A stretch of 48,705 nucleotides of DNA from positions 1 through 48,705 of the IMG/VR virus record IMGVR_UViG_3300009610_000015; one strand, given 5' to 3'. The notes below the pieces were generated by a model, which worked only from the letters and a program-made list of their open reading frames with translations, had not been told where the DNA came from and did not search any database. How positions within the stretch are numbered: the first letter of the stretch is position 1; every line of letters begins with the position of its first letter. The position numbers were made by a program, and so were the translations under genes. Positions 12,048-40,419 of this stretch are shown piece by piece. The stretch comes from a virus.

Positions 12048-12110
12048 AACTTAGACCGCGGTGCAGGGTTTTTACCGTTTCACCTGCTTTGGGTCTATCG
12101 GAGCGGAACG

Positions 12111-12734
12111 GTGTCAGATAGGCCACGCGGCTTTTTTATGGACAACGTCTTAATCACTTACTTTAACAACAAGTTGGCAGATCACGGGAGGTCCCTTGAT
12201 GGCCGCCCAATCTGGAGAATATCGTGGGCACCAGACCAGCGTGAAAAACGACTCGGAACCTTCTCCGACTTCTATGGATCAATCTTTCTTCGAGAGCGAA
12301 CAGAAGTTAGAGACGTCCCTAAATACTGGTATGTGGGTCCGCGTTGGGTGCTTGAGCGCCTTACTTTTCTACCTCCTGGTAGCTCTGTTCATCGCGAGCT
12401 TGTTTCTCAAAGTAGTCCATTAGACATCTCTTCCCCGGTGAGGAGCGGGACCTATGAGCCAGTCTATGTTTTTCAAGACGCTAAAGGTGAAGCTCTCCCG
12501 GTCACTGAGTGGGCTTTGGACGCAGTTATGCATACTGCTGAGTTCGGAGAAAGGCGGCAGCTTTCGGACGCGGATATGAGGGATAAATACCACGCCTCGA
12601 TGGAAGAAGATGCAAAGTATTTTGAGGCTCAATTCCATGAGGCCGGGAGGTCCGCCCTGTTCGCATTCGAGAACTCCGTGTTTGTAGATTCAACGAAAGT
12701 CTATAAAGAGAGCGTCCATGCCTCCGAGATCTAA
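12111..12734 (+). CDS. Hypothetical virion-region protein, 207 aa
   Basis: GTG start chosen because CGGAGCGGAACG, a usable ribosome binding site, precedes it; an ATG nine codons on (12138) is the alternative. Mixed alpha/beta composition with an aromatic-rich centre (SDFYGSIFLRERTEV, YWYVGPRWVLERL) and a helical C-terminus. The end overlaps the next gene by 17 bp. First gene after the capsid, so possibly a head completion or accessory protein. Family not recognised. Confidence 0.7.
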   Translation: MSDRPRGFFMDNVLITYFNNKLADHGRSLDGRPIWRISWAPDQREKRLGTFSDFYGSIFLRERTEVRDVPKYWYVGPRWVLERLTFLPPGSSVHRELVSQSSPLDISSPVRSGTYEPVYVFQDAKGEALPVTEWALDAVMHTAEFGERRQLSDADMRDKYHASMEEDAKYFEAQFHEAGRSALFAFENSVFVDSTKVYKESVHASEI

Positions 12735-31000: not shown

Positions 31001-31695
31001 TCCAGGAGCTTATGAATACGGGGGAAAACTGGAAGAATTTGAAGGCAGGATGGAAGGCGGGAGCTGTCACACCGGATGCTAACGACCTAGGGTTTGGTAA
31101 GTTCAACATTCCTGGTCGTGTCATGGGTGCATTTGATGAAATGTCGACGAAGAGCCTGCAAAGAGCGGGGATGACCGAAAAGGAAGCTAAGGAGATCCTC
31201 CTGACTTCTCCAACTACCTTCGGTAAATCCCTAGGCTTGCAGACTCCTCTTGGTAAGCTCCTGGTGCCCTTCCAAAAGACGCCCGCGAATACCATGAAGC
31301 AAGGATTCGAGCGCGCGTGGAAACACAAGGGTATCGGAGCCGGTGCAATCGGAGCTGGTGCTGCGATGGGAACGCAGACAGATGACCCGAAGAAAATTGC
31401 TTTGGCCTCCGCTCTGATGGGGCCATATGCTCTCCCGTTCCTCCTCGGTGCCCTACCGACCGCAGGTGAGAAAGCAGTTCAGGGATTCTCTCCCATACCC
31501 GAATGGTCGGTTCACAAATCGATCACGGACCCCTTTGCTCCCTTCCAGAAGCCAGGTTTTGCGCGGCTATTTGAGAAGAAGGGAGGAGATGCGAGTCTCT
31601 GGGGTAAGGAAGGGGATACGCGAATCTGGGAAAAGAAAAGCCCCGCCGGTCGGGCGAGGCCTAAGAGTTCCAACAGGCGCAGTCGGAGGGATTAA
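28042..31695 (+). CDS. Giant internal virion protein with ParB-like domain, 1217 aa
   Basis: The largest gene and the last of the late operon. Regions: a Gly/Ala-rich helical, membrane-like segment (about 70-180), a Pro-rich linker (about 215-310), mixed domains, a ParB/Srx-like domain (about 745-820, with VVSIDEDGNYQILDGHHRS), another Pro/Gly linker (about 900-940) and a C-terminal hydrophobic part (about 1095-1150, GAGAIGAGAAMGT and LMGPYALPFLLGALP). The motif ETGAVG(R)DIGP occurs three times (about residues 515, 580 and 870). Plausibly ejected to form the DNA conduit; the ParB-like part may act on DNA. The 3' end also encodes the minus-strand terminator. Confidence 0.7.
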   Translation: MPRGERPVRRSFAEIEAEQSALLDKYQAETGGEKSLWQKANTPLWDKPAEVGENIARSIEGSGDSVFDKAGSSYGRRVGANAARVIGGLGSGLTSPLGVGTVAATVASGGAAAPLLGESMAAGRAIPMIAGRVAQGAGVLQTGHGLGEVGGGLSEGDYRRAGGGLAEIGFGVLGMRNPGGKPRPSATSNVGNVGLQDIGALPTTTTGIHGTPMVPQPRPIGGPQLAGGPPTLTTQPRTIPMQGQTSRVPRYGRMLPENAETPPPLPQSQLPGPPRFRAGPAGVEHLPEAPIQGVVEKGRVSNVSAGMGGARTPEKEAFEALVPDRYKRSAQGISDEGLTYNWRGETVEPPTPGLRLNPQGQLRPEKGFSMDFPQMVDKYGLEEAAARARVTEAEAAKLLKGKPITPAAKPKAKSKYPPPTRTGPAPKKVEATPPEVIAAAKKLQAMTQREAAPVATAAPVQGPNLGAMKTSELQALAAEGNTQAADILVKRAASPRQPTSLKDRLANAIPTRLKNETGAVGRDIGPITERQRRQALVREAKKRVVEPPPEPMGPGRAPMEPGPEVVRGPERMALWKRMKDETGAVGPGTDDLMRQRSELAEEFGEEGIPSRPSSDNPEWAADKDAKWAKFMKEQELHEDMQNFQRRQDLAPEKFEQDMDFMMRENPKFTHEEAMDEIFRQFRINQDRVRDRVRRFQPEARGSNREPPPFRDAEDYPGNKMLARDETEFRGPTIEQGRMVPNKDWYASQDTIDRAQVESVKKYGVSNPKAASRSKPVVSIDEDGNYQILDGHHRSTAGLETGQGVDYQVEDWSPRDSWFREARGMTEYDSPFREAGQKEARKFRRAMDNAESDELGESLYQRLVRQLGKSETGAVGRDIGPMAREQARIKAARAQAAAGGANRGRVPGGGNPPSPRPGASPPPGGQPPSTGAGAVPNKPAGIGEKAWNAMLQARMTAMLSGLAIPKSMLGNVGAHAFASMERKSMKPLQELMNTGENWKNLKAGWKAGAVTPDANDLGFGKFNIPGRVMGAFDEMSTKSLQRAGMTEKEAKEILLTSPTTFGKSLGLQTPLGKLLVPFQKTPANTMKQGFERAWKHKGIGAGAIGAGAAMGTQTDDPKKIALASALMGPYALPFLLGALPTAGEKAVQGFSPIPEWSVHKSITDPFAPFQKPGFARLFEKKGGDASLWGKEGDTRIWEKKSPAGRARPKSSNRRSRRD
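31631..31660 (-). terminator. Rho-independent terminator of the minus operon
   Basis: On the minus strand GCCTCGCC pairs with GGCGGGGC (one G-U) around CGACC, followed by TTTTCTTTT. It lies 32 bp past the minus-strand stop at 31692, inside the last codons of the 1217-aa plus-strand gene. Confidence 0.85.
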
Positions 31696-32903
31696 TTCCC
31701 CTCCTTCTGCATCTTCGAGTAGTTCTCAACTACGGCTGTAGTCAAGACATAGACAATCTCCTTCTTCGTGCTACCATTGAGAGAAATCAACTTAATCGTT
31801 ACCGCCTTCTGAGCCTCTAGGGATTCTGCAATTCGGTCTAGCTCGTAGGAGTCAAAGTCTGCCCAATGCTTCTTGAGCATATTGACTCTGGTCATAGCGT
31901 AGCCGTGTTCTTTCCGCGAGAGCAACTCCTTCAGGAAGGTCGCAGTCCCCACCGAAGTTATCGACTTCCCGCCTCCCATAGAAACCCTGCGCGCACCCGG
32001 CACGAAGTCCTGACAGGCGATAATAGCCTCTTGCACATCTTCCTCCTCCAAGACTAGGTTGACCTTTCTGGAGAGGGAGATAAGCATTGCAGCCTTCAGG
32101 ATGTGGTCGTGCAACCGCTCGATGGTCCCTGTGGTATCCGTATACTCCCCATCGGAGAAGTCCGCATACCACTTGTTGTAAATCTCCCGAGCACCGTCTG
32201 AATACGTGAACTGACCACGAAGCTGAGAGAGAACCTTCAGATACTTCGCAAGTTCTGGAATCTCGATAGACTCCTTAGGCTTGCTGGTCAGTGGGTTGAC
32301 GATGCTCTTCCTGTCTGCATGGATGATATTGGTGCGCGCAACGAAGCCGCCTCCAAGTGCGTTGTCCGGGACAGCATCCTTGAAGTGAACTTCGTTACTC
32401 GCTCCAATCATCGTCAGACACGGATTCTTCAGCTTTTCAGAGCCGCTGCCTTTGGTGAGGTTTGTCCATTCGGGGTTGTAGTCACCGTCGTATAGGTCTG
32501 TGAGGATGGTTAGTGCTTGTTGGTCTTGGATGATGAAACTTGCAAACTCCGAAGTCGTCAGGAACCCAGAAGCGTCAGTCAAGGGAGGGCCTCCATTATC
32601 ACTGGTCTTGGCTTTCTGAAGCTCAGTGATAATCGCTTGGATACTTGCCCTTCCCGAAATGACCCGAGTATTACCTACCTCTGTGACCAACCGTTTCGCT
32701 AGTGCTACGGGTGGCCCCTTTCTGATCCCGGATTTACCCACGAGCAGGACGTAAATGTTAGGGTATAGCTTGTAATAGAACTTGTCAAGATACACCTGAT
32801 TTTTCACGACTGCTGCGATGGCTGACATACCGGCCCAGTAGTAATACTTTCTAGGACTCTCTGACTCCTTAGTTACTGACATCAGATGGTCCAGCCATGT
32901 CAT
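31692..32903 (-). CDS. DUF3987-like P-loop ATPase/helicase-like protein, 403 aa
   Basis: Starts at ATG behind AAGGGGACGAG. The P-loop region reads VLLVGKSGIRKGP (about 52-64), the degenerate form seen in DUF3987-type primase/helicase-like proteins. Conserved-looking segments follow: FASFI (about 127), an MIGASNEVHF and a GGGFVARTNII box, then a helical C-terminus. Proteins of this kind accompany phage replication genes. The DNA polymerase lies directly upstream (9 bp). No DnaB helicase is recognisable, so this may be the replicative or loader ATPase; inference. Confidence 0.75.
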   Translation of the reverse strand: MTWLDHLMSVTKESESPRKYYYWAGMSAIAAVVKNQVYLDKFYYKLYPNIYVLLVGKSGIRKGPPVALAKRLVTEVGNTRVISGRASIQAIITELQKAKTSDNGGPPLTDASGFLTTSEFASFIIQDQQALTILTDLYDGDYNPEWTNLTKGSGSEKLKNPCLTMIGASNEVHFKDAVPDNALGGGFVARTNIIHADRKSIVNPLTSKPKESIEIPELAKYLKVLSQLRGQFTYSDGAREIYNKWYADFSDGEYTDTTGTIERLHDHILKAAMLISLSRKVNLVLEEEDVQEAIIACQDFVPGARRVSMGGGKSITSVGTATFLKELLSRKEHGYAMTRVNMLKKHWADFDSYELDRIAESLEAQKAVTIKLISLNGSTKKEIVYVLTTAVVENYSKMQKEGN

Positions 32904-32912
32904 CTCGTCCCC

Positions 32913-35420
32913 TTAAGCTGCTACTGGTAAGTAATCGTGCATTCCATCACATCCTCTACAGCCCTTAACTTTGCACTCCTTGTAGTTCCGTCCGACCTTG
33001 GCTTCTGACGGGATTATCAGCTTGCCACGAGAGAGGGTGCAGTTAGCGAAGTCGATGGGCTTATTCAACTCCTCAGTCATGATCTGCACGTATCTCTCGA
33101 CGTAATCATTGGGGACTAAGCCAACGAATGCGTCGTGAGCCTCCACTACGAACGGGGTTTTGCCTCCGATGAAGCGTGGGAGAACCTTGTCCGCCCAGAA
33201 GCGAGGAAGAGCTCGTAACCCAGCCTGTCTAAGGTGGTCCGGGACAGTTGACTGTGGTATATGTGCGTAGGCTTCTCGGTAGAGCTCATCTCCCCATCTA
33301 CCAAAGAATTTGCGGTATCGTCCAAAAGGAGAGACAAGGACACGGTCGTTCTTGTCAATCGCATCCCTGATTTCCTTGTGGAAGACTTGACGGATAGGAG
33401 GATTGAACTGGTGGAACTTTTCGAGGATTTTTCCTCCCTGCCACTCGGAAATGCTGATGTTAATACCGAACTTCTTGGCGTCAGTATTAACAATTTGCAT
33501 GAGCCTTTTCTTGCCCATGTCATAGTTACCAGCGTGTCGAGTAGTCTTGCCGATAAACCTAAACTCAGGAGTGACTTTTTCAAAGGCCACACCAAATATC
33601 CAGGTTGATGTGAGCCGATGTATGTCAACCTTATCGTCGAATAGCTTGAGGGTTTTTTCATCTCGTCCTAGGAGCGCAACAATCCTAGCCTCCGCTTGCG
33701 AAAGGTCGATTTCGACGAATGAGTAGCCTGGGTCCGCGATGAAGTAGGAGCGAAGTTCCGCCCCTATCTCACCGTGCTTGGTCATCGTTTGGAAAGCGAG
33801 TCCAATCTTTTCGGGTCGTAGGGGCTGCTTAAGGATACTGTTAGAGCTTCGCCCGGTTTCAGTTCCACAGATTCTGACACTAGTTCGCATCCGTCCGTCG
33901 TAGTCAGGCTTAGCCTCAAAGTAAGTCCCCTTGGACTTACGTAATCGGCGGATATGGATGATGAGTTCAAGAGCTCGTTTGTGGGAAGGTAACTTGCAGG
34001 AGTTAGCTTCCAGAGCGACCAATGTATCCTCATCGACACCTTTCCTTATCGGGAGTTTGAACTCTTTGTAGAGCAGCTCCGAGACCTGCTTCGGAGAACT
34101 CACGTTTACCGGATGCCCAACAATATCGTCGAGGTCAAGCTGGGCATACTTAATCTTGTCCTCATACTCTAGGATCAGCTCTTTCCTTCGGTTATCGTCG
34201 GCTAAGATGCCCACTTCCTCTAGGTCCTTATAGAGGTAATGCAGCTTCATCACATAACCGAAGAAGAAGTCGTCGAGCCAGTTAGGAAATCCAGGCACGA
34301 CCAATTCGCGCGCGGCTTCTGTAAGGCGGAGGAAAATCTCGAACGCGACGGCAGCGTCTTTGGCATTGTAGAGCAGGAGTCTGTCTACCTTGTCTTTCTT
34401 CCAGTTGAATTCCCGGCCCTCATCTTTGTAGTAGGGTTCCTCTGTGTAGATGGAGGCAAGGAAAGCCTGGCTCTTCTCGAACTCACAATGCAGAGAATGA
34501 GCTAGAAGCATTACGTCGCAGTAGACGTTCCTGATCTTGATACCACAGACGTCCTCTAGCTTCCCGTGATCGAACTTGAAGTTCTGCCCTATGACGAGAA
34601 TGTCCTCCCGTCCGAACAGCTCCGCGAGAATCTTCCAAATCTGGCACAGCTGGTGGTCTGCTATCCCCTCCAAGTTCTGCCAGCTCAGGATATCAAGGAG
34701 CGGAACACTTGCGGCGTGCCACTCATTGAAGGCCAAAGCTATGCAGACTGGGAGACCATAGACTGTCTCGATATCGACGCTTACGATGTGCTTGTCAGCG
34801 TAGAGGTCGAGGAATCTCTGGAGGGCGATGGGAGACTTGATGATTTCCAGATTACGCTCAGGTGGAGAGTATCGCTTGAAAAGACTCTGTTCTTTGAGTC
34901 GCTTCAGGTCGAAACGAACCACATGCCTCATCTGGTATTTCATGGCTCCTGCACCCTCGGCGTTTTCAGAGTGCAGGAAAGCAGCAGGGTGGATGGTCGG
35001 GATGACTTTACTATCAAGGTTCAAGGAGGGAAGGACCGAACCTCGGTAGTGCATAATCCCGGTGAAGCCGTTTCCTTTGCCAGTCAGGACGTTTAGGGAG
35101 AGGTTTCCCAAGGCCAGGATGACGTTCGGATTGATGGCTCCAATCTCCTGCCAGAGCTGAGGGATGCCCTCCTCAATGCTGTGCCCTATCTCTGACAGCT
35201 TCCTGAGATTGTTGTTGGGAGGTCGCCACTTGACGACGTTAGTGACGTAACATTCGCTTTTTCTGATCCCTGCTTCAAGCAGCCAATCATTCAGCATCCT
35301 ACCCGATGGCCCACAGAACGGAACGCCCGATTCCTCCTCGTCTGCTCCCGGAGCCTCCCCAACTATCACTATCTTAGCGTCGGACGGTCCTTGACCTTCT
35401 ACTCTTTCTCCTTGCCCCAT
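32913..35420 (-). CDS. Uracil-DNA-glycosylase/family A DNA polymerase fusion, 835 aa
   Basis: The N-terminus (about 1-175) is a family 4/5-like UDG with GEAPGADEE (21-29), PFCGPSGRML and a HPAAFLHS motif. A 3'-5' exonuclease follows (VSVDIET, about 213; then NFKFDH and YNAKDAA). The polymerase palm has motif A VEIDLSQAEAR, motif B as RFIGKTTRHAGNYD and motif C AHDAF. In motif B the residue at the E. coli Phe762 position is His and the usual YG is YD. In motif C Glu after the catalytic Asp is Ala. A ribosome binding site GGAGATGGT precedes the ATG, 22 bp inside the previous gene. Replicates the genome; the UDG domain may tether or repair uracil in it. Confidence 0.92.
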   Translation of the reverse strand: MGQGERVEGQGPSDAKIVIVGEAPGADEEESGVPFCGPSGRMLNDWLLEAGIRKSECYVTNVVKWRPPNNNLRKLSEIGHSIEEGIPQLWQEIGAINPNVILALGNLSLNVLTGKGNGFTGIMHYRGSVLPSLNLDSKVIPTIHPAAFLHSENAEGAGAMKYQMRHVVRFDLKRLKEQSLFKRYSPPERNLEIIKSPIALQRFLDLYADKHIVSVDIETVYGLPVCIALAFNEWHAASVPLLDILSWQNLEGIADHQLCQIWKILAELFGREDILVIGQNFKFDHGKLEDVCGIKIRNVYCDVMLLAHSLHCEFEKSQAFLASIYTEEPYYKDEGREFNWKKDKVDRLLLYNAKDAAVAFEIFLRLTEAARELVVPGFPNWLDDFFFGYVMKLHYLYKDLEEVGILADDNRRKELILEYEDKIKYAQLDLDDIVGHPVNVSSPKQVSELLYKEFKLPIRKGVDEDTLVALEANSCKLPSHKRALELIIHIRRLRKSKGTYFEAKPDYDGRMRTSVRICGTETGRSSNSILKQPLRPEKIGLAFQTMTKHGEIGAELRSYFIADPGYSFVEIDLSQAEARIVALLGRDEKTLKLFDDKVDIHRLTSTWIFGVAFEKVTPEFRFIGKTTRHAGNYDMGKKRLMQIVNTDAKKFGINISISEWQGGKILEKFHQFNPPIRQVFHKEIRDAIDKNDRVLVSPFGRYRKFFGRWGDELYREAYAHIPQSTVPDHLRQAGLRALPRFWADKVLPRFIGGKTPFVVEAHDAFVGLVPNDYVERYVQIMTEELNKPIDFANCTLSRGKLIIPSEAKVGRNYKECKVKGCRGCDGMHDYLPVAA

Positions 35421-35767
35421 ACCATCTCCGTAAGCTCCTCAACCGTATAAACGATCTTGATTTGTTTCGAGATAGCAACGGTGCGCTCCATGACAGCGCC
35501 GGGACTTTTCTCCCATCCCGGAAGCATCAGGATGTGAGTGCAGTGTCCTAGGACAGCCAGATCGTAGGCCATCCAAGTGTGGTAGTGGAGGTCGTAGGCA
35601 GAGGGGAAAGCGGCACCCAGGTGGACGCAGATGGAGGGAATGCCCTCACCCGTGAGTCTGATGAACACCTTGAGCGCGGCTGCTACGTTCTGCTCAGTGC
35701 TCATCTCCCCGTTTGGAGTAATGGGGCCTGAGATGTAAACAAGCACATCTTTCTGCATCTCAATCAT
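35399..35767 (-). CDS. DUF4406-type (deoxyribosyltransferase-like) protein, 122 aa
   Basis: Start chosen at the ATG that overlaps the preceding stop by four bases (ATGA); an upstream in-frame start lies inside the methyltransferase gene. Begins MIEMQKDVLVYISGP, with VYISGPIT as the nucleoside 2-deoxyribosyltransferase-like Rossmann entry, HTWMAYDLAVLGHCTHILMLPGW and then the helix after SPGAVMER. This small family (DUF4406) is widespread in phages. It probably handles nucleotides or NAD-like substrates, but activity is undemonstrated. The stop overlaps the polymerase start by 22 bp. Confidence 0.85.
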   Translation of the reverse strand: MIEMQKDVLVYISGPITPNGEMSTEQNVAAALKVFIRLTGEGIPSICVHLGAAFPSAYDLHYHTWMAYDLAVLGHCTHILMLPGWEKSPGAVMERTVAISKQIKIVYTVEELTEMVWGKEKE

Positions 35768-37035
35768 TTTAGCCCCAGTCGTGCTTTCCCGCTCTCGTAG
35801 TAGTTCTTCTCCCGTTCGCATACGATGTATCTCCTATCTAGCTCTTTGGCTGCGGCTGCGGTAACGAAGGAACCTCCGAAGGGGTCCAGGATGATGTTGC
35901 CCTTGTAAGTCAGGTCGCCGATGATGTCCTTCACGAGTTCAATCGGCTTCTCGTTGGGATGCAGGAGCTTCTGGGGTGGCACAGCTGGAAATGTCTTGAC
36001 CCCAGATAGGACAGTGGGAGAGGTCATTGCTGGTGATCCCTTAGTAGCTATGACCCCAAGCTCGAAGTTCCTATCATACTCCCAAGGTCGAACTCCTCGT
36101 CGGGAGAGTGCATTTGTCTTGTTCCAGATCATGGGGTTCTTGGAGACCTTGAAGCCAAGCCTCTCCAGTTCTCCATTGGTGTGGACTAGCTTGCCGGTCG
36201 AGTGGTCCCGCACATCGGAGCCGCAGTAGTAGGCGTAGTCGTCCAGACCACAGAAGAAGAACAGGAACCCATCGTGTCTTAGCACCCTGTAGATCTCCTT
36301 GAAGACCGGCATCGTTCGCTGGTCCAGGGTCAAATCCTCCTGAAAGAACTTGATCCACGGTGGGTCAGTTATGCAGTGGTCGATGCTCTGCGCGGGAAAC
36401 TTGGAGAGCACGGTCGCCGCATCTCCCAGATAGCACTGGTTGACCGCTAGGTCTTGGTTGACGAGGCCCGCTTCTTCTTCTGCCTCGAATCGTTGTGCAG
36501 CAATGCGGACAAGCCGGACAGCTGTCTTTTTATCTCTAATGTTACGGAGAGAAGGGTCAAGCTGGACCGCCCTAGCGAGCTGGAGGTCTTCTGCAATTGG
36601 TCCGAGAGAGATGCCAAGCTCACGAGCAGTGTCTCGGACTCCCCATCCAGTCTTTTCCGCGTCTTTTTTGGGCCTACCTGTAGGAGCCTCACCGTATTCT
36701 GACTGTCGAAACTTGTGAAGTGCCTCGATAAGGAGGGCCTCCTCCCACCACGGGAGATTGTGCCGCTTAAGGTTTTCGTGGGTCTGGATGATTTTGCCTT
36801 GGATTTCGTCGACTTCGCGGACTTCGGCATCGATCTCCTTCCATTCCAGTTTAATCGCGGCCCGCAAACGCTTCTCCCCAGATACCAGGAAGTAACCCTC
36901 ATCCCTCGGCCGCACAATGATGGGATGGGAGAGACCGAGTTCCTTGAGCGACGATGCGATGTTGTCTACGTCAGATACTAGCTCTGGTGACTCCTCTGAG
37001 GGTGAGTAAAAGATGCTCTCGATCGGTAGCTTCAT
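35764..37035 (-). CDS. ParB-domain DNA methyltransferase, 423 aa
   Basis: ATG at 37035 is chosen for its AGAGGGAAAGA ribosome binding site; the longer frame would run through a hairpin. Residues 1-100 are a ParB/Sulfiredoxin-like domain (HPIIVRPRDEGYFLVSGEKRLRAA, abbreviated by its key GEKRLRAA at 53-60). A helix-turn-helix-like segment follows (about 130-165). Then comes a beta-class N4-cytosine/N6-adenine methyltransferase with DPPW (224-227, catalytic), HPNEKP (359-364) and the SAM-binding DPFGGSF (384-390). It would modify phage DNA against restriction or mark it for other proteins. Four-base overlap with the downstream gene. Confidence 0.9.
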   Translation of the reverse strand: MKLPIESIFYSPSEESPELVSDVDNIASSLKELGLSHPIIVRPRDEGYFLVSGEKRLRAAIKLEWKEIDAEVREVDEIQGKIIQTHENLKRHNLPWWEEALLIEALHKFRQSEYGEAPTGRPKKDAEKTGWGVRDTARELGISLGPIAEDLQLARAVQLDPSLRNIRDKKTAVRLVRIAAQRFEAEEEAGLVNQDLAVNQCYLGDAATVLSKFPAQSIDHCITDPPWIKFFQEDLTLDQRTMPVFKEIYRVLRHDGFLFFFCGLDDYAYYCGSDVRDHSTGKLVHTNGELERLGFKVSKNPMIWNKTNALSRRGVRPWEYDRNFELGVIATKGSPAMTSPTVLSGVKTFPAVPPQKLLHPNEKPIELVKDIIGDLTYKGNIILDPFGGSFVTAAAAKELDRRYIVCEREKNYYESGKARLGLK

Positions 37036-37049
37036 TCTTTCCCTCTGCG

Positions 37050-37131
37050 AAAAATTGCCGGGAGGCTTGCGTCCCCCCGTTACGCGAGACATACCCTCAC
37101 TCGTAACGACTCGCACCATTCCTCCCGGCAA
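37050..37131 (-). terminator. Nested inverted repeat with U-tract before the ParB-methyltransferase
   Basis: Outer arms TTGCCGGGAGG (37055-37065) and CCTCCCGGCAA (37121-37131) are perfect 11-bp inverted repeats. Inner arms CGTTACG (37078-37084) and CGTAACG (37102-37108) form a second stem. On the minus strand the outer stem ends in TTTTT, so it resembles a terminator or attenuator lying between the acidic peptide gene and the methyltransferase gene. A structured regulatory RNA is the alternative. Confidence 0.65.
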
Positions 37132-37141
37132 ACTTACCTAA

Positions 37142-37297
37142 CTAGAACGGAATGTCGTCGTCATCCGTCGTTTCGTCCGCGACGTCGTCCTCGTCCGTGT
37201 CGTCCTCGGTCTCGTCCCTGACCACGGTTTCCGTAACGCCCGTGTCCTCGTCCTCACGGCGCTTCTGCACCGCTTCCTTGATGTCCTTGTCGGTCAT
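37142..37297 (-). CDS. 51-aa acidic peptide with SSB-type C-terminal tip
   Basis: ATG with a GGAG ribosome binding site 7 nt upstream. After a basic start (MTDKDIKEAVQKRR) the chain is almost entirely Asp/Glu/Thr and ends DDDDIPF. This is the exact style of the bacterial SSB C-terminal tip (DDDIPF) that docks replication and repair proteins, but no OB fold is attached. The OB-type SSB candidate is the next gene upstream and ends differently. The peptide could act as a free or recruited SSB-tail, or as a decoy for host SSB partners. Tip sequence seen; function inferred. Confidence 0.75.
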   Translation of the reverse strand: MTDKDIKEAVQKRREDEDTGVTETVVRDETEDDTDEDDVADETTDDDDIPF

Positions 37298-37449
37298 TGC
37301 ATTCTCCAGATGAAAAGTTGTGGGAGTTCCGTCATTTTACGTGCTTACCGCAGCTCCCAAGCATTCACACAACCTAATCAATTCACTTTTCTAGTGCCCC
37401 TCACTTTGATGTAGGGGACGCATGAATTAATTTCGGGGAGTCGAGGGGT
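37298..37449 (-). promoter_or_regulatory. Intergenic control segment with hairpin
   Basis: No gene in 152 bp. On the minus strand GTTGTG...GGGAG pairs with CTCCC-ACAAC (arms at 37368-37373/37354-37358 and 37322-37326/37317-37322) and is followed by TTTTC just before the ribosome binding site of the acidic peptide. A second small stem CCCCT/AGGGG (37397-37417) lies after the SSB-like gene. Attenuation or mRNA processing between the two genes is plausible. Confidence 0.45.
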
Positions 37450-37884
37450 CTACTTGAAGTCGCCGAAGCCACCGACCGGAGCGGCCTCAGTCACGCTGGA
37501 TGAAGGTGCCCAGTCGTCGATCTGGTTGCGGGGCTTGTCGTTGCCCGTCTTGCCGCGCGAGGTGACGATGTGAACCATCACCCTCTTGCCCACCTGCATC
37601 TCGAAGTCGTAGTCGGGGTCCACGCCCTCCTCCTCCGAGACCTTGCCTCCCGTGGCCTTGATGAAGGGGATAGCCGACTGCGGGAACTTCTCCGAGAACC
37701 ACGTCGGGATCGGGACGTCCGTTGCATCCCCATCCAGGCCGACAACGTCGATGCGCGTGTTCATCGACTCCTTGTCCGACGCGACTTCCTGACGGACTTC
37801 CTTGATCTCCGCCCCATACCAACCTGGACGGACGATCTTCTGCGCCTTCACGTCTTGCGGCGTAATGTTCATGCGAATTGCCAT
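37450..37884 (-). CDS. Single-stranded-DNA-binding-like (OB-fold) protein, 144 aa
   Basis: Strong AGGAGTAGACAA ribosome binding site. Begins MAIRMNITPQDVKAQKIV, then strands PGWYGAEIKEVRQEV, NTRIDVVGLDG, VPIPTWFSEKF and a late GKRVMVHIVTSRGK. The five-strand pattern fits phage OB-fold SSB-like proteins. The C-terminus is disordered with acidic and Gly-rich sections and ends GGFGDFK, not an SSB-type acidic tip. It is near the recombination ATPase and polymerase genes, so ssDNA protection in replication is the likely role. Confidence 0.65.
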   Translation of the reverse strand: MAIRMNITPQDVKAQKIVRPGWYGAEIKEVRQEVASDKESMNTRIDVVGLDGDATDVPIPTWFSEKFPQSAIPFIKATGGKVSEEEGVDPDYDFEMQVGKRVMVHIVTSRGKTGNDKPRNQIDDWAPSSSVTEAAPVGGFGDFK

Positions 37885-37946: not shown

Positions 37947-38192
37947 CTATTTACAAGGCTGGCCGCTCCCAATCGCTGCTCCACACCGCTTGCAGAATGA
38001 GCCGTTCATGTAGAACTCCCATTCATGTTTTATTTCCTCAGGTTTATCCTCCGGGAAATTTGGTGCGTCGCCTGGGAAGCGAACACGGTCAGCCTCGATG
38101 CACTCAGGGCAAATTGCGATAGCCCTGAATACGGTTTCGTCAGGAACCTCATTGCTGACCGATTTGTGGCAGATCCAGCAGATGAGTCTCAA
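37947..38192 (-). CDS. Zinc-ribbon protein, 81 aa
   Basis: TTG start at 38192 is chosen since AGGAGGTAACTGC, a very strong ribosome binding site, precedes it; the longer frame begins inside the upstream gene. Four CxxC-type Cys pairs: CWIC near residue 5, CPEC near 32, CKRC near 69 and a final Cys. Two small zinc knuckles separated by an acidic linker are likely. Starts 4 bp inside the Sak4-like gene end. Function unknown. Confidence 0.75.
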   Translation of the reverse strand: MRLICWICHKSVSNEVPDETVFRAIAICPECIEADRVRFPGDAPNFPEDKPEEIKHEWEFYMNGSFCKRCGAAIGSGQPCK

Positions 38193-39010
38193 GCAGTTAC
38201 CTCCTCTGCCTTTCCCTGGAGCTTGACATTGTGCTCTGCACAATACTTCTGCAAAATCGGATACAGAGGCTTATTGGTAATGTCAATGCGTGGAGGCAGA
38301 GGGAGCGCAGTCTTTGCCATATCCTTACCGGTCGGTTGGGTAAGGACGAATCGCTGTGCAGGCTCATTCGGAGCACTAGGTGGCTCAACCCCGAATTGGT
38401 AGATTTCGTTGAAGTATATGGGAACCAGAGAGGGGGTCTTGGTTCCATAGGCTGCAATCGACCTCGCTTTCTTGAGAGTGCCACCCCCAACGTCTACGCT
38501 CTTGTCGACCGGGTGAGCAGTGAAGATGACGTTGCAGGGGAGAACCTTGGACACGTCGAGAATTTGCTGGACGACCGAAGTCTCTCCATTGAACTCGTCC
38601 CAGGAGGGGACTTGGATTCCGCTTGTAAGCTTCTTCCCTTTTCCCTCTTTGGACTTAATTCCGAGTTGAAAACCTACAGCCGTGGCAGTAAGAGCTGTGA
38701 TAGAATCGACCACAACCGTCTCCCAAGGACACCGATCCTGGAGGTCTTCAAACTCTCGCGCGAAATCCATGAACGAGATACAACCGGGGAAGTTCGGGCC
38801 GGGTCGGATGGCTTCCATTCCAACGAGGTCATAGGTGATGTCCCTCCTATTGGGATAGAACAGCTTCAACGGCTGCATTCTCCCGTCGAAGTCGAAGAAC
38901 TTAATGGGGCCGGGAAACGACCCTGCTGCGACAGTTTTCCCGTTCCCATTGTCGCTGATAAAGAGGGCCATGATGCGACCCCCTAGCACAATGTCGAACA
39001 CGTTTGGCAT
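38189..39010 (-). CDS. Sak4-like RecA-fold ATPase (AAA_24), 273 aa
   Basis: ATG overlaps the upstream stop (TGATG). P-loop SDNGNGKT (19-26) and Walker B TVVVDS (98-103) with the neighbouring ITALT helix. It looks like the phage 'nucleotide-binding protein' family that includes Sak4 single-strand annealing ATPases. Next to a Cas4/RecB-like nuclease and an SSB-like gene it would form a recombination module. C-terminus PRIDITNKPLYPILQKYC fits the family end. DNA-binding and annealing activity are inferred. Confidence 0.82.
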   Translation of the reverse strand: MPNVFDIVLGGRIMALFISDNGNGKTVAAGSFPGPIKFFDFDGRMQPLKLFYPNRRDITYDLVGMEAIRPGPNFPGCISFMDFAREFEDLQDRCPWETVVVDSITALTATAVGFQLGIKSKEGKGKKLTSGIQVPSWDEFNGETSVVQQILDVSKVLPCNVIFTAHPVDKSVDVGGGTLKKARSIAAYGTKTPSLVPIYFNEIYQFGVEPPSAPNEPAQRFVLTQPTGKDMAKTALPLPPRIDITNKPLYPILQKYCAEHNVKLQGKAEEVTA

Positions 39011-39207
39011 CAGAGTTTGTCCATTTCCTCGCAAAAGACGTTCTTGACAGCATTCTTCCACTCATCGACACTAATCTCTCCTAGCGCCTTGAGTGAGTCC
39101 TCTGCAAACTCCAAAGTTCTCCCGATGACAGTGATGCCAATATTACGGAGGAGCACCGACCTCCGTAATTGTAGGTCTTTGATGTGAGCTGCAAGTTCAG
39201 GATGCAT
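39010..39207 (-). CDS. Small helical protein, 65 aa
   Basis: ATG at 39207 overlaps the preceding stop (TGATG); a TTG one codon upstream is an alternative. Helical throughout: HPELAAHIKDLQLRRSVLLR, then LKALGEISVDEWKNAVKN. Probably a small accessory of the recombination ATPase that follows with a 1-base overlap. Family not recognised. Confidence 0.7.
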   Translation of the reverse strand: MHPELAAHIKDLQLRRSVLLRNIGITVIGRTLEFAEDSLKALGEISVDEWKNAVKNVFCEEMDKL

Positions 39208-39525: not shown

Positions 39526-40419
39526 CTACGCCTCTGTCTCGCCAACGGCCTCCTCCTTCTTGTCTCGGGTGTGCGGCGACCACGGATCACCCTGATAGTA
39601 TTGAGAGTTGAGCTTGAATTCGCGCACCTGTGGTATCGAGCAGCACACCTGTTGAAAGATGCACCCTGAATACTTGTCGCAGGACGTGAAGTTGGGCGGG
39701 AAGTAGTTCTGGTCGATGTAGCCGACAAGGACATGTGCCCAATAGATCGTCTGCTGAACCCATTCCCGAATCAGCTCCCGCTCGTATGAGATGAACTGAC
39801 GCTGAAACCTTTCGGACGCCGGAATCGACTTCTGGAATCCGATCTTGTTGATGATGACCTGATTCATGTTGAGCGCCCAACAATAACCCATGAACTGGTT
39901 AGACAGCTTGTTGGGATTGGACCGACGAGATGCTGTCTTGTGGTCCACGATGTAGATACCGTGGGGTGAGGGATGCTCTACGATGGCGTCGATGATTCCC
40001 TCGTAGGCAATGGTGAGACCGGGCCTCGTTGGGGTGTCCGGCCTCTCGTAAATGACCTTGGAAAAGCTCTGCTCGACTTCGAGAACCTTCCAGCCGTCGC
40101 GCTGCCAATAGAGGACGTTCTCCTTGAATTGCTTAATGTCCTCCTCGGCAGTCGCGACAGAGAGTTGCATGGGGAGGTATTCCTTTCTCCCCTCTGCAAT
40201 GGCACCAGCGATCAGGAGCGCATGATCCGCGTCCGTCGTGGTCATGCCCGCCTTCTTACCACGGAGGTAATAAGCGAGCATCTTATGCATCAAATCGCCC
40301 TTCTCCAGAGCCTCCGCCTTCTCTGTGGGGCGCCAGTTGTCTATGAACTGCATCTTGACCTTGCGCCCACACGAGACCAAGGTGTTCAGGATCTGCGAGT
40401 CAATGGCGATATTCCTCAT
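39526..40419 (-). CDS. Cas4/RecB-like PD-(D/E)XK exonuclease with Fe-S cysteines, 297 aa
   Basis: Nuclease motifs: His45 in GDLMHKML, Asp144 in GIIDAI and Asp159-His-Lys161 in IYIVDHKTA, followed by Gln175 in NQFMGYCWAL. Cys17 near the N-terminus and Cys247, Cys253 and Cys259/260 near the C-terminus (CDKYSGCIFQQVCC) match the 4Fe-4S clamp of Cas4 and AddB. The ribosome binding site AAGGAATAA precedes the ATG. It likely resects DNA ends for recombination or degrades host DNA, working with the Sak4-like ATPase downstream. Confidence 0.88.
   Translation of the reverse strand: MRNIAIDSQILNTLVSCGRKVKMQFIDNWRPTEKAEALEKGDLMHKMLAYYLRGKKAGMTTTDADHALLIAGAIAEGRKEYLPMQLSVATAEEDIKQFKENVLYWQRDGWKVLEVEQSFSKVIYERPDTPTRPGLTIAYEGIIDAIVEHPSPHGIYIVDHKTASRRSNPNKLSNQFMGYCWALNMNQVIINKIGFQKSIPASERFQRQFISYERELIREWVQQTIYWAHVLVGYIDQNYFPPNFTSCDKYSGCIFQQVCCSIPQVREFKLNSQYYQGDPWSPHTRDKKEEAVGETEA

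Follow-up and report, generated by a model that had tools for sequence, protein, structure and literature searches.

A separate gene for a putative SSB tail beside a tail-less OB-fold protein in viral contigs

The window, i.e., the whole 48,705-base virus record analysed here, carries on its minus strand a gene for a 51-aa acidic mini-protein ending in DDDDIPF (37142..37297), apart from the gene for a neighbouring OB-fold SSB candidate that has no tail of its own. Bacterial SSB recruits repair enzymes through a DDDDIPF tip, and an acidic C-terminal tail is usually regarded as integral to the SSBs of prokaryotes and phages. The acidic gene is real and is a member of a large syntenic family, of which the genes encode 43-102 aa with ~40-70% D/E and lie directly after a PrgE-like tail-less OB SSB gene, usually beside Sak4. 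Neither a free-standing SSB tail nor an SSB-tip decoy in phages was found in the literature searched.

The 51-aa frame ending in DDDDIPF, reported in an earlier note on this DNA, is indeed present: it starts with ATG, is preceded by a Shine-Dalgarno-like TCTGGAG and encodes MTDKDIKEAVQKRREDEDTGVTETVVRDETEDDTDEDDVADETTDDDDIPF. The same note described the peptide as nearly all Asp/Glu/Thr, which is right as to its acidity (D/E, 45%) and overstated otherwise, as D/E/T make up only ~60% and the N-terminal 15 residues are mixed, including Lys and Arg. Judged from this composition, the protein is probably disordered. The tip codons (37145..37165, minus strand) specify an acidic stretch, Ile-Pro and a last Phe followed by the stop, in agreement with the SSB-Ct pattern acidic-(I/L)-P-F, albeit on a separate ORF and not on the OB-fold SSB polypeptide. 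Among the ORFs of the window, this is the only one with an SSB-like tip at its end. We found the same peptide again in seven other viral contigs, and where a contig with a 95%-identical SSB differs from the window in this gene, at two nucleotides, both changes are synonymous. PHROG and Pfam searches with the acidic mini-proteins gave no significant match, and a sigma-70 scan detected no promoter near the 51-aa gene.

The surrounding replication block is encoded entirely on the minus strand. On one side of the acidic gene lie a ParB-N + N6/N4 DNA methyltransferase (35764..37131, with a conserved start near 37035), a UDG-DNA polymerase A fusion (32913..35420) and a primase/helicase-like protein (DUF3987; 31692..32903); on the other, the 144-aa OB protein (37450..37884), a Sak4-like ssDNA annealing ATPase (38189..39061, with a conserved start near 39007; PHROG 124, E 1e-13, and AAA_24) and a PD-(D/E)XK exonuclease (39526..40419). 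The methyltransferase, polymerase, primase/helicase and exonuclease were assigned by Pfam/PHROG profile matches. Between the stop codon of the OB gene and the 51-aa ORF there are 153 nt. The relatives are all metagenomic; searches of named phages with this SSB or Sak4 gave no match, no Sak4 relatives were found in genome contigs, and named phages in the polymerase search had <30% identity among the matches listed.

Although the 144-aa protein had no convincing match in Pfam or PHROG, and the DUF669 profile did not match it at E<=1, its predicted structure is OB-like (pLDDT 73) with the OB strand order present. The best match among solved structures was PrgE of plasmid pCF10 (8s4s; Foldseek 5.7e-05; VIA Z 9.9, the next entry being 5.3), and the best predicted viral matches (BFVD) include DUF669 proteins, which the model thus resembles at the fold level only. 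A second OB subfamily, modelled from 21 sequences, gave pLDDT 92.9, and PrgE was again the best match (Z 11.1; next entry, 6.4). The 144-aa gene also adjoins sak4, as expected of a Sak4-associated phage SSB. Given (i) the OB-like model, (ii) the PrgE match and (iii) the precedent of phage HK620, in which a DUF669 protein encoded beside Sak4 is a proven SSB (PMC5928155), the predicted function of the 144-aa protein as an SSB is well supported. This protein ends in GGFGDFK and lacks an SSB tip, as the earlier note had stated, and its relatives end in GAGFDN, GSFEDLS or HKYRALRG. One subclade (L051, L056 and L217-L226) has OB proteins ending in an acidic-Phe tip (NVPDADF, NIPGSDF) that resembles T7-type tails, and the separate acidic gene is present there too.

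The acidic tail had been suggested to be split from the OB protein in the window; the same arrangement holds at more than 100 loci. Within the window's SSB subfamily, an acidic ORF lies right after the SSB gene at nearly all loci on viral contigs. The second OB subfamily was reached via a conserved leader sequence (see below), and its profile gave 80 loci, 76 of which had enough flanking sequence; an acidic ORF of 43-102 aa with 38-72% D/E lies directly downstream of the SSB gene in 76/76, and in none does it end in an SSB tip. Grouping by simple string similarity at 80% yielded 69 clusters, 52 from the sister subfamily and 17 from the window's own. High acidity is the only feature common to all 69, the C-termini varying freely. 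Because these mini-proteins are of low complexity, it is position and composition, not alignment, that support the homology of distant acidic ORFs. For comparison, we took 80 unrelated viral stretches, which were picked for tip-bearing proteins and are not random viral DNA; of their 3,737 ORFs of 40-100 aa, only one had >=40% D/E, and that one is this acidic gene as found in a near relative. Some tail-less OB genes have no acidic neighbour, namely those in L029, L030 and L058 and those for the OB-like proteins of L235-L237, the three named phages examined from the polymerase search, in which no acidic ORF was found. L202 and L021 were not informative, as their sequences diverge after the N-terminal part at the contig end.

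In 120 viral stretches encoding DDDDIPF followed by a stop, most tips form the end of an SSB/OB protein and no other acidic mini-ORF was found, which fits a picture in which a phage has a fused acidic tail or a separate one, but not the two together. A transition from fused to split tail is suggestive only, the matches to DUF669-type OB proteins with a fused DDDDIPF (L124, L063 and L107) being weak profile matches. It seems common for phage proteins other than SSBs to carry an SSB tip. Small unrelated phage families of 73-89 aa, which are not typical SSBs, end in DDDDIPF (L135/L101/L109; L075/L118; L062/L082; L072, weakly matching DUF736; L139; L142), as do helicase-like phage proteins in L061, L064, L092, L147 and L165.

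Is the terminal IPF conserved in homologues, as the earlier note would lead us to expect? The answer differs between the window's clade and the family. DDDDIPF is limited to the window's clade, including L005, where it occurs on two distinct peptides among the 69 clusters. Between L005 and the window, the peptide body has been largely rewritten, whereas the final eight codons, those of the tip and the stop, are all identical; at the codon change rate of the neighbouring methyltransferase gene in the same pair (0.32), an unchanged tip has P ~0.04. Conservation of the tip within the clade is therefore mildly significant on the codon comparison of two distinct peptides, and, as far as its sequence tells, the tip there is an authentic SSB-Ct. 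Across the family, 67/69 clusters end otherwise. The relatives combine the acidic body with ends such as DDLDEDDKD, DEDLVQ, DDSPEE, DKDDDE, EGDSGE, TGAEDE, DEDVVE and DDDSVV, and an SSB tip as a family-wide feature is thus ruled out. The earlier note had named this very combination as evidence against its reading, and it is found in the family though not in the clade.

Sister acidic proteins carry a different motif. The pattern Q[LIMV]x[LV]P[FLYI] (e.g., QLELPF, QLDLPL) occurs in 14 of the 52 second-subfamily clusters, against 0.01 expected by shuffling, and only once in 105,306 residues of long ORFs from the same contigs. It fits the published clamp-binding consensus QLxLxF (PMC11139829), of which the strict definition is satisfied by 12/52 sister clusters and by 0/17 in the window's subfamily. 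One such candidate is MYLNPDEPEQLELPFDPP... The position of QLxLP[FL] varies in the acidic proteins of L238-L317, mostly N-terminal and, in L315, C-terminal. An N-terminal aromatic pair, a candidate docking patch, is also enriched by its occurrence in the sequences (31/52 sister clusters against 4.9; 7/17 in the window's subfamily against 0.5). The window peptide has neither this aromatic patch nor a beta-clamp motif (Q-aliphatic-x-[LM]-x-[FL] or the pentameric form), so that the SSB tip is its only recognisable motif and it shows no visible tether to the OB protein.

Upstream of the acidic gene we noticed a candidate for a new structured RNA, a pseudoknotted leader (37317..37374, minus strand) with sequence shared by distant phages. 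It consists of GGUUGUGUGAAUGCUU, an 8-bp stem with two inner C-G pairs and a pseudoknot GUGY/RCAC. Its loop, GCGGUAARCACGUAAAAUGACGG, is nearly invariant in nine distinct sequences from distant phages, and the stem and pseudoknot covary, both partners having changed in 5/14 pairs; 95% of the alignment cells are paired, against 25-58% when the alignment is slid. Counterparts lie at 3040-3097 in L005, 6468-6525 in L010, 5321-5378 in L185, 5386-5443 in L187 and 3527-3584 in L234, mostly upstream of the acidic gene and, in L187, upstream of the SSB gene. An Rfam search with the leader gave no match. The ATG in the loop opens a short frame beginning with MTE (window, L005, L185 at 5360, L186). As read from the window, this region holds a 13-aa leader ORF, MTELPQLFIWRMQ (37294..37335, minus strand), which ends in a stop codon overlapping the ATG of the 51-aa gene (ATGA). 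The L005 leader ORF, MTELPSFFIWRQV, shows the same kind of overlap with its acidic gene, and in L185 and L186 the MTE frame continues in frame into the acidic protein. Translational coupling of the leader ORF to the acidic gene is possible. Some gaps between the SSB and acidic genes hold other elements: those in L022 (4435-4835), L025 (4444-4560) and L056 (5324-5430) are without the pseudoknot leader and contain GTGTGG(c/t)CCCGAGC...TCGGGGCAC, and that in L023 (4438-4600) contains a tRNA-like 3' half (GTGGGTTCAAATCCCATCCCCCGGCA). Elsewhere in the window, a CyVA-1 RNA (Rfam RF02965, 62 bits) was detected at 12055-12131 on the plus strand.

The tip shares with the bacterial SSB-Ct (DDDIPF) its last residues, a free C-terminal carboxylate and the acidic stretch before them, and differs in being encoded on a separate 51-aa gene with no OB fold attached. 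A close parallel is found in HK620, in which sak4 likewise adjoins the gene for a phage OB SSB, and the last six residues of the DUF669 SSB (NDYPPF) are needed for loading of Sak4 on SSB-covered ssDNA (PMC5928155). In that phage, however, the tip that drives the partnership ends the SSB itself and requires attachment to ssDNA-bound SSB for its activity (PMC5928155), whereas in the window the tip is encoded by the gene that follows that of a tail-less OB protein. In phage SSBs such as T7 gp2.5 and Enc34 ORF6, the acidic tail tunes DNA binding, recruits replication partners and enforces a preference for ssDNA; the Enc34 SSB without its acidic tail loses its preference for ssDNA over dsDNA (PMC5686142). 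These tails are covalent, unlike the separate gene of the window, and the window's OB family, PrgE-like, is a different one. PrgE, which the tail-less OB protein matches best in structure, is a plasmid protein, and a term search of its description (PMC11137577) gave no mention of an acidic or C-terminal tail. Sister acidic proteins resemble beta-clamp-binding proteins such as Hda (PMC11139829) in carrying QLxLP[FL] mostly near the N-terminus, and differ from them in having no folded domain attached.

We favour, at slightly less than an even chance, the interpretation that the 51-aa protein is a stand-alone and probably disordered SSB tail, co-encoded with a tail-less PrgE/DUF669-like SSB and a Sak4 annealase. 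The acidic body would do in trans the job of the covalent acidic tail in other phage SSBs, and a short linear motif would dock the phage replication/recombination zone onto replisome proteins. The tip of the window's clade would fit the tip pockets of such readers as Sak4 or host RecO, PriA, RecG and ExoI, and sister phages may present a beta-clamp motif in place of the tip on the same kind of scaffold. We infer the binding to tip pockets, the association with the OB protein, and recruitment rather than competition. In favour of a detached tail are the tie of the acidic ORF to a tail-less OB SSB and its near absence elsewhere, the PrgE-like OB fold shared by both SSB subfamilies, and the enrichment of the clamp motif and the aromatic pair. 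Targeting of replisome hubs is more credible than from the tip alone, because QLxLPF occurs on the same scaffold in other phages. Against a detached tail count the two distinct tip-bearing peptides with their P of ~0.04, the OB SSBs that lack both a tail and an acidic neighbour, the want of a visible tether in the window peptide, and the HK620 tip, which functions only on SSB bound to ssDNA.

This last point bears directly on another interpretation, namely that the mini-protein is a decoy aimed at the host, of which the free tip (or, in relatives, the clamp motif) would fill the pockets of host SSB-binding proteins or the sliding clamp and so block host repair or replication. Since the HK620 tip has to sit on SSB that is bound to ssDNA, one with no attachment at all would be expected to compete and not to recruit, and a host-directed decoy thus retains substantial weight, unlikely as we judge it overall. 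A peptide not covalently joined to a DNA-binding fold would by default be a competitor of host SSB, one kind of scaffold carries two different motifs for host hubs, and there are known examples of phage proteins disabling the clamp, e.g., Twort Gp168, as cited in PMC11139829. The strict synteny with the phage SSB/Sak4/methyltransferase block nevertheless argues for a role in phage replication, and most family members have neither motif.

The variable C-termini permit a further interpretation, to which we grant a rather small probability: the acidic body itself may be the function, as a polyanion or DNA mimic whose role would be to gate the OB groove, to guard against nucleases or restriction, or to buffer a basic partner, the IPF of the window's clade being incidental. 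Acidity is the sole feature kept in 69/69 clusters, and in T7 SSB competition of the acidic tail with ssDNA for one surface has been reported, as stated in the title of Marintcheva et al. (2008) cited in PMC5686142. The likeness of the window peptide to DNA-mimic proteins lies in high acidity only, as read from its sequence. If the acidic body were the whole function, however, an exact DDDDIPF end would be very unlikely by chance, and neither would one expect that end to be what has stayed constant between L005 and the window, nor the strong motif enrichment in the sister proteins. Finally, we attach almost no credence to the ORF being a translation artefact of a GAC-rich stretch. A Ser-rich open frame on the opposite strand could be taken to hint at one, but this frame is a by-product of the same codons, and the start, Shine-Dalgarno site, length class and acidity are conserved at more than 100 loci with synonymous changes; the conserved synteny and the Shine-Dalgarno site rule out a spurious ORF.

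A large phage group with a separate tail gene provides a natural experiment on what an SSB tail does in cis and in trans. We tentatively suggest, while leaning somewhat against it ourselves, that these phages may possess a widespread and undescribed mini-protein family in which the SSB tail has become an independent gene, an exchangeable adaptor with one disordered scaffold bearing lineage-specific hub motifs (SSB tip or clamp), by which the phage would take over or block the host replisome. Should the exchange of motifs prove genuine, the mini-proteins would be natural peptides against two antibacterial target pockets, those for the SSB tip and on the clamp.
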